Below are positions 11,914 through 20,116 of a stretch of DNA of 34,197 nucleotides, piece by piece. A program made the translations under genes and the position numbers. The stretch is from an uncultured bacterium (GTDB taxonomy: Bacteria > Planctomycetota > UBA8108 > UBA1146): positions 1 to 34,197 of the forward strand of contig CAJXMG010000030.1 of the NCBI GenBank assembly GCA_913056395.1, written 5' to 3'. The notes below the pieces were generated by a model. It had not been told where the DNA came from. It ran no database searches and saw only the letters and a list, made by a program, of their open reading frames with translations. Within the stretch, counting starts at the first letter, position 1. Each line of letters opens with the position of its first letter.

Positions 11914-12088
11914 TTTGCCTCAATTGAGCCCCGAACCGGGACAGGAAAGGATCATATCGACCCCGGAGTGCCCCTGAAAGATCACCCGTAACCTCTTTCA
12001 ATCGTGTATCTTACGCAACTTGACCCAGCCCAGAGATGGGATCGGCCCGGCATTTGCCGCATTCCGGTTGGATTGGATTGGAGATTTC

Positions 12089-14650
12089 ATGCTCAGGACA
12101 ATGTTGTGGAGCCTCGGCCTGATCAGCCTCATCGGCTGTTCACCGATCAAGACCGAGGTCGAATTTGTCACCCCCGCAGCGGGGCAGACGGTGCCTCTGA
12201 ACGCCCTCATCATCGAAGTGGGCTTCGATCACCGCATGAATCTGGAAACCTTCGATAGCAGCAGCTTCAAGGTCCAAGGTTCGACGAGTGGGCCCATCGA
12301 AGGAGCCTTCACCGGTGAGAATGAAAACCGCAGAGTCACCTTCACCTCTCTGAACTTGCCCGCAGGTGGGGAAACCATCACCGTAGAGTTGACCTCGGGC
12401 CTGGTTTCGACCTCCGGAAAATCGGTCGATCCCTTCCAATGGCAATTTGCCATCGAAGCGGGAACTGCTCCCCCGCCCTCCTCTTTCATCGTCTCTTCGA
12501 TGACTCCCGGGATCGAGGCTTACAACGGCAACGTTAACAGCACCATCAATCCGGTGCTCACTGCTCCTTACGACCCGTTCAGCATCGGCAATGCCACGAT
12601 CCGGATCGACGCCTCCCGCAGTGGCCAGAGAACGGTCAGCCTGCAAAACGTCTTCACAGGGATCAACACCATCACTCTCTCCCCCGATCGCCCGTTTCTG
12701 GCGGGTGAACGAGTGACGCTTTCCCTCGTGGACGACGTCTTTGGTCTCGACACCACCGAATTGCCGCAAACGTTGTTGGCCACCCATATCGCCAATCTCG
12801 GATTCGATTGGCCCGGCAATGTCGTGAGTTCAGGGTCTGCCCTCAATGGCGGAAAAATCGTCTTCTTCGATTCCGACGCCGACGGACTCGACGAGTGGGT
12901 GGAGGTCGAAGCGAATGGAACCCTGACCCATCAGGATTCGACCCCCTCTGGCCCCGCAGGTTCGACCACCTGGAATCTGCCGGAAGCCGTCATCGATGCG
13001 GCTGTCGGAGATTTCGATGGCGATGGACGCAGCGATCTGATCTGTCTCGGAAACTCGGGAACCTCCGCCTATCTTTTGCGTGGCTCGTTCAGCATCGCAG
13101 TCGTCCTCGAGGATCCGGAACTGATTCCCCTCACGGTACAGTCGACCCATCTGGAAGCGGCCCATGGTGATCGCGATGGGATCGTCGATCTGGTTCTCAG
13201 TGGACCGGATGGTCTCGCCGTCGCCTGGGGTGGAAGCATTAATCCCCTCAGCGTGATTCACCCCGTCGATTCGACTCCTGTGGTTCATCGTGCCGTTGCC
13301 ACCGATCTCAATGGCGATGACCTCATCGACCTCGCGGCGGTTCTGGCCGACGGAAGCATCGCTTTCCACGCAGGAAATGGCGATCGCACCTTCACCGCAG
13401 AGGGAACCATCCTCGGTTACAACCTCACGCAACAGATTCGCGCCGTCAATCTCGATGGAGATTCCCTGCGTGACCTGCTGCTGATTCCATCCGGAGCGGG
13501 AACTCCTTCCGCCCTCCTCTCCGATGGCGATTTCAACTTCTCGCTGCGAGTCCTCTTTGACGATGTGGTCGCTCCAGGTACAGAGTTGATCGACTGGGAT
13601 GGGGATGGACGTCTCGATTGCATCAGCCCCATCGCCGGTTCCGCCGGTCTTTACTTCGCCAAGGGAGTGGGTGATGGAAACTTCCAGAGCCCCCAGCTTC
13701 TGGGCTACGCCTCAGAGGTGGAAGCCGTGACGAGCGGAGATACCGATGGAGATGGCGCTCTGGATCTGGCCATCCTGACTCCGGCCGGCACCTTTGAAAT
13801 CCTGCGTTCGGAGCCTGTGGTTCTCTCCCCCGCAAACCGTATTCGTGTGGAAGATCTCAGTGCCAACCCGGGTGATACCGTCAACTACCAGGTGATCATC
13901 GATTGCATCGATTCCCTGCAGGGTTGGACTCTGGCACTCGACTACAACGCTTCCATTATGGGACTGAACAACATCACCATCGCCGGAACCGATGTCGCCG
14001 GGCTCGTCGAGTTTGAGCTGCCCAACATCGACAACTCAAACGGTACCGTGATCTATGCCAACATTCTTGATCTGGCACCGCCCTTCGATAATCAGGTACT
14101 CGCTCCAGGATCGGGTTACGTCGTGGCAACCGGTGAAGCCTTCATCAGCGCAGGAGCGCCGGCAGGTAACTACGACTTCACTCCAGCAAATGGAATCATT
14201 GCCAATACGTCTCCCGAGACAGACAACTCCTTCGTCGTCAACGGCAGCTCCTTATTCCCCGAATTGGTCGGAGGTACCGTCTCCATCGGCGGCAGCAGTC
14301 CCGCCCAGCAGCCTTCTGATAATGAAGATCCGGAAACCGGTGGTGAGGACTCCACCGACCCGGTGGAGAGTGATCAGGTTCACTTCCTCCGTGGTGACGT
14401 CAACGGAGATGGCGTGATCGATCTCACCGATGGAACACAGTTACAGTTGCTGCTCGGAAATGGCACTCCCATCGAGTGCGCAGACGCAGCGGACGTCAAT
14501 GACGATGGAATCGTCGACGATGCCGACCCGGTCTACATCTTCGACTTCCTTTACCAAGGATCCAATCCACCTCCCGCACCGTATCCCCTCCCCGGTCCTG
14601 ATCCGACCGCGGATGGACTGGATTGCCAGTCCTACGGTGCGGCTCACTAA
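12089..14650 (+). CDS. Large lipoprotein with Ig-like, FG-GAP, cohesin-like and dockerin modules
   Basis: An 853-residue exported lipoprotein. The signal peptide 'MLRTMLWSLGLISLIGC' ends in lipobox L-I-G-C17; ATG 12089 with TTGGAGA upstream was chosen because it puts the signal peptide at the start. Modules in order are as follows. First is a Big_5-like domain at about 25-125 ('TPAAGQTVPLNALIIEVGF'). A second Ig-like stretch reaches about residue 240. At least six FG-GAP-like Asp-rich repeats lie between about 250 and 570, for example 'DFDGDGRSDLICLG' and 'DTDGDGALDLAIL'. A cohesin-like beta domain spans about 584-735 ('VEDLSANPGDTVNYQVII'), followed by an acidic linker. A dockerin with two calcium loops begins near 768 ('RGDVNGDGVIDLTD', 'DVNDDGIVDDADPVYIF'). 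It is likely anchored at the cell surface or outer membrane. The ligand is unknown, and the cohesin call is by pattern only. Confidence 0.85.
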   Translation: MLRTMLWSLGLISLIGCSPIKTEVEFVTPAAGQTVPLNALIIEVGFDHRMNLETFDSSSFKVQGSTSGPIEGAFTGENENRRVTFTSLNLPAGGETITVELTSGLVSTSGKSVDPFQWQFAIEAGTAPPPSSFIVSSMTPGIEAYNGNVNSTINPVLTAPYDPFSIGNATIRIDASRSGQRTVSLQNVFTGINTITLSPDRPFLAGERVTLSLVDDVFGLDTTELPQTLLATHIANLGFDWPGNVVSSGSALNGGKIVFFDSDADGLDEWVEVEANGTLTHQDSTPSGPAGSTTWNLPEAVIDAAVGDFDGDGRSDLICLGNSGTSAYLLRGSFSIAVVLEDPELIPLTVQSTHLEAAHGDRDGIVDLVLSGPDGLAVAWGGSINPLSVIHPVDSTPVVHRAVATDLNGDDLIDLAAVLADGSIAFHAGNGDRTFTAEGTILGYNLTQQIRAVNLDGDSLRDLLLIPSGAGTPSALLSDGDFNFSLRVLFDDVVAPGTELIDWDGDGRLDCISPIAGSAGLYFAKGVGDGNFQSPQLLGYASEVEAVTSGDTDGDGALDLAILTPAGTFEILRSEPVVLSPANRIRVEDLSANPGDTVNYQVIIDCIDSLQGWTLALDYNASIMGLNNITIAGTDVAGLVEFELPNIDNSNGTVIYANILDLAPPFDNQVLAPGSGYVVATGEAFISAGAPAGNYDFTPANGIIANTSPETDNSFVVNGSSLFPELVGGTVSIGGSSPAQQPSDNEDPETGGEDSTDPVESDQVHFLRGDVNGDGVIDLTDGTQLQLLLGNGTPIECADAADVNDDGIVDDADPVYIFDFLYQGSNPPPAPYPLPGPDPTADGLDCQSYGAAH

Positions 14651-14659
14651 CATTCCCCC

Positions 14660-14737
14660 CCCGGCCAGTTTCCCCGCTCCCCCTGCGCGGAGCACTCCCC
14701 CTTCCCCTCCGGGAATCTGGCCGGGCCCCCCTTTTTT
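14660..14737 (+). terminator. Branched intrinsic terminator after the lipoprotein gene
   Basis: Ten bases past the stop, 14660-14674 pairs with 14711-14725 (outer arms CCCGGCCAG and CTGGCCGGG, inner TCCC with GGGA, one mismatch). The enclosed loop holds a second small hairpin, GCTCC with GGAGC (about 14676-14693). A C-run and then six T residues (14732-14737) follow. The GC-rich stem plus T-tract is the pattern of a rho-independent terminator, although the long branched loop is unusual. Confidence 0.6.
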
Positions 14738-16060
14738 CCCTTCATTATGGCCACCCGGATCCTCATTTCAGGATTCGGTCAACCCCCTCATACGACCCGC
14801 GCTCCAAACCCCGATTCGTCAGATTTTTTTTGTGGTCCAAATTGCCCAATGGAGGCGACAGGATTCACTTCCGGGAGTCGGGACAAATCGTCTTCCGGGT
14901 ACCATATTGATGAGGGGCACAGGGCTAGATATTGTGCGGCCCTCGCCTGAAAAATACCGCCGAGTGCGGTTGGGGTGAGAAATCGATACGGGGGCCATCC
15001 TGAGTGAATCCAGCCGGATTCCGGGGGTTTGACTTCATTTTTCGATGCCATTGCCCGGGGGCAACTACCTGGTGAAATCCATGTGAGATCCATGTGATTT
15101 TCATATGCGATTCACCACGTTGTGGCTCCTGCAAGGGGGGATTCCCCCTTCCGGCAGCGGCCAGAGAATGGAACAGGCCTCGATAGACGTCTCTCGTATC
15201 GACCGGGCTCCTGAATCGCTCCCGGTAGAAACTGTGAATCGATCGTCGGCGTGCACCCGCAGTGCAAACCCACGGGAACAGCACAGATTCGCCGAAGCGT
15301 GAAAAACCCGGTTTGTTGTCGCGATTTGGCGCCTGTGAAAGCCTGACTCATGAAGAGCTCAGACCACTTTGGAGCTGGATTGCTGGGGGCTCGGCTTCAT
15401 TGAGCCATTGGGTTGGAATCACGGTGGCAGTTTCAACTGCGCCTGCCCATGACCACCCGGCGAAAATGAAGCCGATGAAGGGAGCGAGACGGGAAGTGTT
15501 CCTGTCGGACCTGAGCGTCGAAGCACTGTGCTTCTACGCCAGGGTCTGAACACTGGAACCGCCGATCCCGCAATGACGGAGAGCCTGGGAAGGCCTCCGG
15601 GTTTGAGAGTGTGGGTCGCAGAGTGCAGGACCTGAACAGGATTCTGCCTTTGAGACCCGGGTTTAGTGTTCCGTTGTCAGAGGGAACAGGGTTCTTTCTG
15701 ACTGCAGCATGTCAACGGGTGGTAGGCTGGCTAAGAGGCGCGCACGGTCGATCCTCTGAGCCACAGGAAACCCGCCCGGCTGTTACATTTCGGCGATTCC
15801 TGCCCAGTGCGGGGTCTTTTGGAGCCTTCCCGTGGTCCCCTGAAGACTCTCGCCCCGGGAGTGTTGGAGTCCTTTCCCTTTTTGGAAAGATACTCCTGCT
15901 TTCATGCGCCGAGACTGACGTGGAGAGTGACATGCCAGGAATCCTGCCCCCATTCCTCCTTTGGGGCCGTTTGGCCCTCGGAGAATCACTCCTGAACCCG
16001 GAAGACTGAGCCCGGACAAGTGGGGTCCGGTTCGCAAGAACTGGCCCAGGAGAGACTTTG

Positions 16061-16102
16061 GGCCGCGTGAGCCTTGAGGGCCGCGTGAGCCTTGAGGGCC
16101 GC
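16061..16102 (+). repeat. 18-bp tandem repeat, 2.3 copies
   Basis: The unit GGCCGCGTGAGCCTTGAG occurs at 16061-16078 and exactly again at 16079-16096, followed by a partial third copy GGCCGC (16097-16102). The copies are identical, so the duplication is recent or under correction. It sits between the GCAA-tetraloop hairpin and the CCCGCCC hairpin of the nrdJ leader region. Confidence 0.9.
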
Positions 16103-16389
16103 AGTCGGTCCCCTGAGTCTCTCCGATCCCGCCCATCAAGAGGGCGGGTTGGTGTACAGTGTGGGATTGCGAGTCGAGAAAGTGGAATCACCTTCACGAT
16201 CTGCAATCTTTCGTCATGACTCGGTTTCGGAAACGGAGAGGCAGGATCAAAGCTGCCTTTCCCTGCGTTCTGCCACTGAAGTGATTCGGGGGGAAAGCGC
16301 AGCGTTGATAGCGGCAAGTTGAAAACTGCAAGCTGAACCTGCTTGCACTGAATCGTTGCGCGCCGACACGGAACAGAGTCTTAGGGAAT

Positions 16390-16441
16390 ACCCGGTACGG
16401 TTCGGTCACTGCGGTGAAGACCGGACTCGCACTGAACGGGT
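16390..16441 (+). promoter_or_regulatory. Hairpin immediately upstream of nrdJ start, possible translational control element
   Basis: An outer stem ACCCG (16390-16394) with CGGGT (16437-16441) encloses a long hairpin. In it GGTTCGG (16399-16405) pairs with CCGGACT (16421-16427), allowing two G-U pairs, and TCAC pairs with GTGA around a TGCG tetraloop. The structure ends 26 nt before the TTG start and just before the purine-rich AGAGGA ribosome-binding region. It is well placed to affect initiation, but the ligand or mechanism is unknown. Confidence 0.4.
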
Positions 16442-16467
16442 AAGGGAAGAAGAAAGAGGAAGACAGT

Positions 16468-19400
16468 TTGAAGATTCAACGTCGCTTTACCACAGAAGGC
16501 ATGAGCCCATACGAGGGCATTCCGATGACGACCCGAACATCCGAGATTCGCAATCCGGATGGCACAGCGATTTTCCATCAGGACGACATCGTCGTTCCGG
16601 AGAATTGGAGCCAGGTCGCCACCGACGTGCTGGCACAAAAATATTTCCGCAAAGCCGGAGTACCCCAACTGGATGACAGTGGCCAACCGAAAGTGGATGC
16701 CGATGGCAATTCGATTCTCGGGGGTGAGACCGATTGTCGTCAGACCTTCGGCCGCCTTGCAGGCTGCTGGACTCACTGGGGATTTGAAAACAACTACTTC
16801 GACAGCAAGGAAGACGCCCGCGCCTTCCATGACGAGTTGTGTTACATGCTGGCCAACCAGATGTGTGCACCCAACTCACCGCAGTGGTTCAACACCGGAC
16901 TTCACTGGGCCTACGGCATCGATGGTCCCCCACAGGGGCACCACTACGTCGATCCTGCCTCCGGTGAATTGAAAAAGGCCAATAGTGCCTATTCCCGTCC
17001 GCAGCCCCACGCCTGCTTTATCCAGAGCGTCCAGGATGATCTCGTCAACGAAGGCGGAATCATGGACCTGTGGACCCGCGAAGCACGCCTCTTCAAGTTC
17101 GGATCGGGAACCGGTTCCAACTTCTCGGCACTTCGCGGAGAAGGGGAGCGTCTCTCCGGAGGCGGTAAGTCCTCCGGCCTGATGTCGTTCCTCAAGATCG
17201 GCGATGCCGCAGCGGGAGCCATCAAGAGTGGTGGAACCACCCGTCGGGCAGCAAAGATGGTCTGCCTCGATCTCGACCACCCCGACATCGAAAGTTTCAT
17301 CACCTGGAAGACCCGCGAAGAACAAAAGGTTGCGGCACTCGTTTCCGGATCCCGGATGTGTGCCAAGCATCTGACTGCTGTTCTGAAATCGTGTCGCCCC
17401 AACGGTGAAGAAACCGCCAACATCGACTTCAAGACCAACACTGTTCTCGCCGGAGCAATTCAGAAGGCCAGAGAAGTGGCGGTTCCTGAGCCGGCCATCA
17501 TGCGAGTTCTCCAACTGGCAGATCAGGGCGTCACCGGTATCGAGTTTGATGAGTTCGACACCGGCTGGGAAAGCGAAGCCTACGCGACCGTCAGTGGACA
17601 GAACGCCAACAACAGCGTCCGCGTACCCAATGCATTCTTCGAGGCTCTCGAAAATGATGGTCAGTGGGATCTGATCAGTCGCACCGACGGGGAAATCATC
17701 AAGAGTGTCCCCGCCCGCGAGCTGTGGGAAGAAGTCAGCCGTGCCGCATGGTCCTGCGCTGATCCAGGAGTTCAGTTCGATACCACCATCAACGAATGGC
17801 ACACCTGCCCCCGTGATGGACGAATCAACGCTTCCAATCCCTGCTCCGAGTACATGTTCCTCGATGACACGGCTTGCAACCTTGCCTCTCTCAACCTCGT
17901 CAAGTTCATGAAGGAGGACGGAAGCTTCAATATTGAGGCCTTCCGCCATGCGACCCGTATCTGGACGATGGTTCTCGAGATCAGCGTACTGATGGCCTCT
18001 TACCCGAGTGCCGACATCGCCCGCCTCTCCTACGAGTACCGCACTCTCGGTCTGGGCTACGCCAACCTCGGAACAGTCCTGATGCGTCTCGGTCTTCCCT
18101 ACGACAGTGAAGAGGGACGCGCCTTCTGTGGTGCCATCACCGCGATCCTGACGGGTCAGTCCTATGCCACCAGTGCCGAAATGGCCGGTGAACTGGGTCC
18201 CTTCCCTGCCTACGACCGCAACCGTGACAGCATGCTGCGTGTGATGAGAAATCACCGCGGAGCCGCTCACGATGTGAAACCCGAGGAATACGACGGCCTG
18301 TCGATTTTTCCGACCCCGATCAAAGAGAACTCCTGCGCTCCAGAGATGATTCAGGCAGCCAGGGATTGCTGGGATGAAGCGGTCTCGCTGGGTGAAAAGC
18401 ACGGCTACCGCAATGCCCAGTCGACCGTGATTGCTCCCACCGGAACCATCGGTCTGGTGATGGATTGTGACACCACCGGCATCGAGCCCGATTTCGCGCT
18501 CGTCAAGTTCAAGAAACTCGCCGGCGGTGGTTACTTCAAAATCATCAACCAGAGTCTTCCGCCCGCCCTCGAGCGACTCGGTTACTCCGAAGAGCAAATC
18601 ACTGCGATTAGCAAATATGCTGTCGGACATGGCACCCTGCGTGGAGCCCCTCACATCGATCACGAGGCCCTGAGAACCATGGGCTTCGACGAAGCCTCCA
18701 TCGCCAAGGTGGAATCCGCACTCGAGGGAGCTTTTGATCTGCAGTACGCCTTCAATGACTACCTTCTCGGTGAAAACTTCGCCGAGGTGAACCTGGGCCT
18801 GACCGGCGATCGCCTGGAGATGTGGAAGAGCAATCCCCTCGCCTCCCTCGGCTTCACCAAGGAGCAGATCCTCGCCGCCAACGAGTACGTTTGCGGAACC
18901 ATGACCATCGAGGGTGCTCCCCACCTGAGCGACGAGCATCTGGCTGTCTTTGATTGTGCCAATCGCTGTGGCCGCAAGGGTGAGCGATTCATTCGCTCCG
19001 ATGCCCACGTGTTGATGATGGCTGCAGCGCAGCCGTTCATCTCCGGCGCCATTTCGAAGACGATCAACATGCCCAATGAGGCCTCCATCGACGACGTCCG
19101 CGAGTCCTACAACCTCGGATGGAAATCGATGCTGAAAGCAGTTGCCCTCTACCGCGACGGCAGCAAGCTTTCCCAGCCTCTCTCTTCCTGGGGTGAAGAC
19201 TTCGATGAGGTCGAACTGCCAGAGGCGACCAACAACATGCCAGAGAATCTGGAGAAGGTCGTCTACCGCTACCTCGCCCGTCGCCGTCGACTGCCCCACC
19301 GTCGCAGTGGCTACACACAAAAAGCCATCGTCGGTGGACACAAGGTCTACATCCGCACCGGTGAATACGAAGACGGTACTCTGGGTGAGATCTTCCTCGA

Positions 19401-19956
19401 CATGCACAAGGAAGGGGCCGCATTCCGCAGCCTGATGAACAACTTCGCCATCTGTGTCTCCCTCGGTCTTCAGCACGGTGTGCCCCTCGAGGAGTTCGTG
19501 GAGGCCTTCACCTTCACCCGCTTCGAGCCGAATGGCATCGTCTCCGGAAACCGCAGCATCAAGATGGCGACCAGTGTTCTCGATTACATCTTCCGTGATC
19601 TCGCCATCAACTACCTTGGCCGTCATGATCTGGCTCAGGTTCAGGAGGATGACCTTCGCTCGAGCAGTCTGGGCAGCAGCCCGACGACTCCCGAGTTCAC
19701 CGACGAAGTCGAACAACCCGGCGGCAGTTTTGTCGGAATCCCTTCCGCAGCTTCCACCTCAAGGTTGGCAGAAAATGAAGGCGGCATGAAAAAGGCCGCC
19801 TCATCGACGGCAACGGAAGAACTTTCGGCAGAATCCATTTCCAGGGCCAAGGGTTACACCGGTGATCCATGCCCCGAATGCGGATCATTGACGATGGTTC
19901 GCAATGGCACCTGCCTCCGCTGTGACTCCTGTGGAGCGACCACCGGTTGTTCCTGA
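16468..19956 (+). CDS. nrdJ: Class II (adenosylcobalamin-dependent) ribonucleotide reductase
   Basis: An 1162-residue class II reductase that converts ribonucleotides to deoxyribonucleotides using adenosylcobalamin to make the thiyl radical, without oxygen. The active-site block is '[21 protein letters not shown]': N457, C459 (thiyl radical position) and E461, with redox partner C470. The other redox cysteine is C183 in 'PHACFIQSV'. '[20 protein letters not shown]' is the phosphate/substrate loop. The C-terminus is a four-Cys zinc ribbon ('CPECG' ... 'CLRCDSCG') with a final 'TGCS', as in long NrdJ proteins. The start is TTG 16468 with AGAGGA upstream; the following '[11 protein letters not shown]' matches the usual family N-terminus, and the ATG at 16501 would drop conserved residues. 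Preceded by a long structured region and closed by a strong terminator. Confidence 0.96.
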
Positions 19957-19996
19957 TCACGGTCACCGTGGTTTGACGACAGTTGTTGACCAGGAG

Positions 19997-20036
19997 GCGA
20001 GGGCGGTGAATCACACCGCCCTCGCTTCTTTTTATT
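19997..20036 (+). terminator. Rho-independent terminator after nrdJ
   Basis: A perfect 12-bp stem, GCGAGGGCGGTG (19997-20008) with CACCGCCCTCGC (20014-20025), closes a 5-nt loop AATCA and is followed by TTCTTTTTATT. This is a strong intrinsic terminator 40 nt after the nrdJ stop and 80 nt before dcd, so dcd probably has its own promoter. Confidence 0.92.
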
Positions 20037-20116
20037 CACAGTTTTGGATGGGGCGCAGGCTCCAGCACGGTTATCTTCAACAGTAGTTCAACGCTGTGGA
20101 AAGGTGAGGAGAAACG

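Follow-up and report, generated by a model that had tools for sequence, protein, structure and literature searches.

The window, meaning the whole 34,197-nucleotide stretch of DNA that was analysed, is contig 30 of a 2.77 Mb genome whose near relatives, as found by nrdJ protein search, are marine Planctomycetota MAGs (e.g., TMED53 and MCMED-G47). It carries nrdJ, the gene for a class II ribonucleotide reductase, and 3' of it a dCTP deaminase gene followed by a radical-SAM CofH/MqnC-like gene (both assigned with Pfam). On its 5' side nrdJ is separated by a long gap from a gene for a secreted-type protein. The features in this part of the window are:

12020-14650, + strand: gene for a secreted-type protein with FG-GAP repeats, an Ig-like Big_5 domain and a dockerin (Pfam)
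14660-14736, + strand: terminator of that gene, with arms at 14660-14674 and 14711-14725 (15 nt, 93% complementary), then the T run CCCCCCTTTTTT
14907-14936, + strand: promoter-like site, TTGATG (14907-14912), 17 bp, and TATTGT (14930-14935) inside CTAGATATTGTG
14938-15056, + strand: 5' domain of 119 nt with genus-specific sequence, made up of a terminal hairpin at 14942-14979 plus another, closed hairpin domain
15243-15275, + strand: hairpin with the conserved loop CCGCA (15257-15261) and a stem that changes between species
15716-15778, + strand: domain in which an outer helix, CGGGTGG/CCGCCCG, closes an inner hairpin with the hexaloop CACGGT (15743-15748); the hairpin model covers 15730-15761
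16023-16047, + strand: hairpin with a GCAA tetraloop (16034-16037)
16049-16124, + strand: long variable hairpin with an 18-bp tandem duplication (16060-16095)
16389-16442, + strand: final hairpin ahead of the ribosome-binding site, with TACCCG/CGGGTA as outer stem, 16402-16407/16419-16424 as inner stem and ACTGCGGTG as conserved loop
16452-16461, + strand: Shine-Dalgarno-like GAAAGAGGAA, found by k-mer comparison and alignments and conserved with unchanged spacing in most family members
16468-19956, + strand: nrdJ, class II (adenosylcobalamin-dependent) ribonucleotide reductase, TTG start (Pfam PF02867, PF08471, PF12637)

The nrdJ start (16468-16470) is TTG in most family members, an uncommon choice for the gene of an essential enzyme; in G007 it is GTG. 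The small subunit of a class I ribonucleotide reductase was not found in the genome, and nrdJ may be the cell's only ribonucleotide reductase (class I was checked). NrdR is also encoded in the genome.

The stretch from 14738 to 16467, which from about 14942 on is referred to here as the leader, shows no coding signal. ORFs of 95-201 aa overlap it, and none of the nine overlapping translations has a Pfam match at E ≤ 1. Indels between the leaders of relatives that are 82-90% identical measure 19, 25, 14, 7 and 11 nt, mostly not multiples of three, and they sit in variable tips between invariant blocks. The missing Pfam matches and the frameshifting indels bear out the original prediction that no credible CDS is present; they speak against a protein-coding gene or pseudogene, and the degraded gene that had been raised as an alternative was not found.

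Strong folding, which had also been proposed, is confirmed, with z-scores of -3.9 for 15100-15800 and -8.5 for 15800-16467. In steps of 300 nt, the z-scores across 15001-16500 range from -4.3 to -2.5, compared with a mean of -0.49 (sd 1.21) for the 107 other segments of the window. The segment 14701-15000 has a z of about 0. The structured region had been thought to start at 14738 and its hairpins to be concentrated on the nrdJ side. Instead, 14660-14735 belongs to the terminator of the upstream gene (the matching segment in relatives has a fold z of -3.35 on the + strand vs -1.18 on the - strand), 14738-14906 is not strongly structured, and the structure begins at the promoter-like site, with a fold far above chance from about 14942. 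The hairpins are spread over about 14940-16442.

In family members, 79 leader segments of about 200 nt have a mean fold z of -1.82 (se 0.15), and the 200 bp 5' of the promoter have a mean of -0.45 (se 0.23). In G012, the structure signal stops at that genome's own promoter. For four genomes outside the family, the matching stretch 5' of nrdJ has a z near 0. Consensus folds measured against column shuffles give z-scores of -2.7 to -8.0 in most blocks. The fold energy of the whole leader is lower for the + strand in 8 of 8 comparisons. On that strand, Watson-Crick pairs have changed to G-U more often than to A-C in clades A and B, and the - strand shows the reverse. In clade C this test is neutral, and for 200-nt pieces the fold z shows no significant strand difference (-0.14, se 0.13).

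Of 59 related genomes, 54 yielded an nrdJ or related reductase gene, and for family members the DNA 5' of the gene was read as well (the leader of G001 consists of two contigs joined through an identical 87-nt overlap). Where enough sequence is available, the gene order in the family is a dockerin-type gene, a gap of at least about 0.8 kb, and nrdJ. The upstream gene in these members is of the same type as that in the window, with the C-terminus ...DPTADGLDC. The synteny of a dockerin/FG-GAP gene before nrdJ also holds in the order-level relative G016. Leader length in the family varies from about 0.8 to 1.56 kb. No copy of the leader occurs elsewhere in the genomes, and the conserved 22-mer TTTGACTTCAYTTTTCGATGCC has no exact counterpart in viral contigs.

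Sequence turnover in the leader is rapid. Across genera, the only 8-9-mers that recur at consistent places are CTAGATAT in the promoter and AAAGAGGA in the Shine-Dalgarno region. Among four species there are 100-nt blocks of the leader that are nearly invariant. When structures predicted from single sequences were compared within clade A, changed cells were split between 97 with pairing kept and 96 with pairing broken; in clade C, 24 compensatory changes were counted vs 1-7 when the structure was slid. The predicted global fold is therefore correct only in part, and evolution is fast over large parts of the leader. Only some of the helices are proven.

The putative promoter at 14907-14936 carries a signature, TTGA-N(13-15)-TAGATATNGTR, that has a single occurrence in each of 13 among the 16 genomes of the family and is absent from 13 other genomes of the class. 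Where the contig reaches nrdJ, the signature is 0.93-1.56 kb 5' of that gene. The three family genomes without a match are G004 (where a contig end cuts the leader), G012 (which has the signature with one mismatch at -879) and G007 (which has none). The site was not listed by a simple sigma-70 consensus scan. Given its position, the RNA start is predicted near 14942, about 200 bp 3' of the start originally proposed. The element CTAGATATTGTG, which overlaps the -10, presumably resembles half an NrdR box, and one half-box-like CTAGATATNGTG is conserved within the signature. NrdR sites consist of two boxes, usually with a spacing of 15-16 bp (PMC12051234); a second box at that spacing was not seen by eye at the promoter. 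The genome encodes NrdR, but NrdR would not explain the RNA.

The 5' domain that follows the promoter has a mean column identity of 92% in five species, and 99.4% of its predicted pairs are kept, with few changes. Its covariation is weak (57 of 500 shuffles reach the score), and the changes are too few for a firm claim. A model of this domain (R2) matched five genomes of the genus and none beyond the genus among 294 Planctomycetota.

The domain with the CACGGY hairpin is family-wide. Twelve leaders, drawn from three genera, have the hexaloop, closed by a G-C pair, 380-725 nt before nrdJ, and a variant with the loop CUCGGU occurs in G013. Single-sequence folding places a similar enclosing helix around it in most leaders. 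The covariation among homologous leaders that had been called for is present in this hairpin: over 10 distinct sequences, pairing is intact in 86.7% of cells, seven of the nine pairs have changes on both sides, and the stem covariation of 0.768 falls to 0.160-0.262 when slid and is reached by 0 of 500 shuffles. In each of 12 genomes a model of the hairpin (R1) has a single strong match, which invariably falls in the nrdJ leader; the next-best matches have an E of 0.2 or worse. The hairpin was not found in the nrdJ leaders of G010 (L054), G012 (L106) and G007 (L105), which are shorter (0.8-1.0 kb) and also structured; the leader may therefore have been remodelled in these genomes. As to a kissing partner for the loop, no conserved RCCGTG was found in the leader, and the motif is missing from most leaders.

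The last hairpin before the ribosome-binding site also covaries. Within the genus, its inner stem changes from CGGUC/GACCG to GAAUC/GAUUC while the loop ANTGCGGTR is kept, and 100% of the inner-stem cells are paired, vs at most 52% when slid. A TGCG tetraloop had been predicted near 16410. What is conserved there is the longer loop ANTGCGGTR, not a tetraloop. In genus members, UGCGG of this loop is complementary to the CCGCA loop at 15257-15261, a possible long-range loop contact suggested by base complementarity; as the two sequences are conserved but do not covary, it is a lead only. The predicted GCAA tetraloop at 16034-16037 is real, but its hairpin is peripheral because it is missing from the relative G003. 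In the adjacent variable hairpin, the exact 18-bp tandem duplication of GGGCCGCGTGAGCCTTGA (16060-16095) is found in this genome alone and illustrates the growth of hairpins in the leader.

Structured leaders typically measure 50-300 nt. Few large RNAs are known in bacteria, and their function is mostly unknown. An nrdJ RNA motif with tetraloops has reportedly been described upstream of nrdJ in metagenomic DNA, and the original prediction had suggested it for this locus. The likeness lies in the position 5' of nrdJ and in the tetraloops; the suggestion is unsupported, since no Rfam family matched this leader, although the Rfam library may lack a model of this motif. Rfam 15 (4227 families, cmscan) gave no match at the gathering threshold in the window or in the loci of 13 relatives, and scans up to E = 10 gave chance matches only. 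Two positive controls were detected in the same genome: RNase P RNA, on another contig, and a cobalamin riboswitch (71.1 bits, L063, G000:C7:88752-88955). The latter is the only cobalamin riboswitch match of the genome and lies on a different contig, away from nrdJ.

The leader can be compared with further known systems. Cobalamin riboswitches before ribonucleotide reductase genes are likewise structured leaders of genes tied to B12 and deoxynucleotide synthesis, but the present leader is several times longer, and RF00174 had no match in the window or in the relatives' leaders; membership is unsupported. GOLLD, ROOL and OLE (PMC12286853) are large multi-domain RNAs that similarly have conserved apical loops and variable stems. 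Membership is unsupported here as well, as none of their Rfam models matched in the window or the relatives' loci. In contrast to these RNAs, the leader is chromosomal and fixed before nrdJ, with no phage link seen. GOLLD members exceed 800 nt (PMC12286853), and this leader, if it is a single RNA, is about twice the length of GOLLD. For homo-oligomeric assembly by loop contacts between molecules, the only candidate seen is the CCGCA/UGCGG complement of genus members, which does not covary. The literature searched yielded nothing relevant, either on leaders of nrdJ or on large RNAs of Planctomycetes. The region is classed here as a structured leader RNA without a known parent family, unusual in its size and sequence turnover.

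That a structured RNA precedes nrdJ is well supported by fold energy, conservation throughout the family and covariation in the CACGGY and last hairpins. The original prediction left its role between a cis-regulatory leader and an independent ncRNA. The conserved promoter-like site and Shine-Dalgarno sequence, terminator-like sites that are not above chance between promoter and nrdJ, and the conserved hairpin next to the Shine-Dalgarno sequence favour one transcript, and with it a leader, short of proof. The conserved promoter and ribosome-binding site flank the conserved structure, and the same gene lies downstream in all members. On balance the region probably forms the 5' leader of the nrdJ mRNA, very long and structured, and controls expression of the gene. 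Against this stands its size, as 1.5 kb far exceeds what known cis-regulators need, and most of that length turns over fast.

The main rival is a large ncRNA with a function of its own, made from the promoter at 14907-14936 and either processed off or merely located 5' of nrdJ, which is possible at a distinctly lower probability. An RNA of 0.8-1.5 kb with several domains, conserved apical loops and fast stem turnover resembles the large ornate RNAs, and a CACGGY loop that lacks its complement in most leaders is expected if the loop contacts something else. However, linkage to nrdJ is strict in every family member that was read, and an RNA acting independently of nrdJ would account poorly for the lack of a terminator above chance, the hairpin conserved directly 5' of the Shine-Dalgarno sequence and the absence of copies elsewhere. 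It is unlikely that the leader represents an undescribed class of very large RNA (0.8-1.5 kb), co-transcribed with nrdJ and with its own activity as a ribozyme, RNA assembly or RNA-protein machine.

Selection might also act generically for a long, folded, untranslated leader (for spacing, mRNA stability or insulation from the upstream gene) with no specific sensing or catalysis. The variable length would fit, and so would the failure of most of the sequence and many of the predicted helices to persist from genus to genus. This is considered quite unlikely, since it would not require the near-invariant 100-nt blocks of four species, and the CACGGY loop and its closing G-C are kept across three genera despite changes in the stem. 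A divergent known RNA (cobalamin riboswitch, nrdJ motif, group I/II intron, RNase P etc.), invited by the position before a B12-dependent enzyme, or a degraded protein-coding gene, invited by the overlapping ORFs, is highly improbable in light of the Rfam and Pfam results, the frameshifting indels, and the cobalamin riboswitch and RNase P RNA located elsewhere in the genome.

If the region is a leader of the nrdJ mRNA, transcription would start near 14942 and run without a stop into nrdJ, and the leader would fold during its synthesis. The CACGGY domain may be the functional core or recognition module, its likeliest role being to bind a protein or other trans-factor or to make tertiary contacts. 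The hairpin adjacent to the Shine-Dalgarno sequence could serve as the output, transmitting the leader's state to the nrdJ message at the level of its translation or stability. Most of the remainder would be scaffold that changes quickly in sequence yet retains its structure. Obvious candidates for the sensed signal would be deoxynucleotide, cobalamin or growth status, given that this genome may have no ribonucleotide reductase other than nrdJ.

A structured nrdJ leader of 0.8-1.5 kb in a marine Planctomycetota family would, if true, be among the longest described. It would provide a test case with handles at the nucleotide level (the hexaloop CACGGY, the hairpin adjacent to the Shine-Dalgarno sequence and a single promoter) and could reveal the control of an essential enzyme that depends on B12 but whose gene has no classical cobalamin riboswitch. 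Large RNAs with quick sequence turnover evade searches of the Rfam type.

Two other segments of the window also have strong folds. The strongest of all 300-nt segments is 19801-20100 (z -5.5), which spans the 3' end of nrdJ together with the space ahead of the dCTP deaminase gene and is possibly a terminator or regulatory hairpin. The segment 6301-6600 (z -4.2) lies close to where an ORF ends and to the gap that separates it from the next gene.
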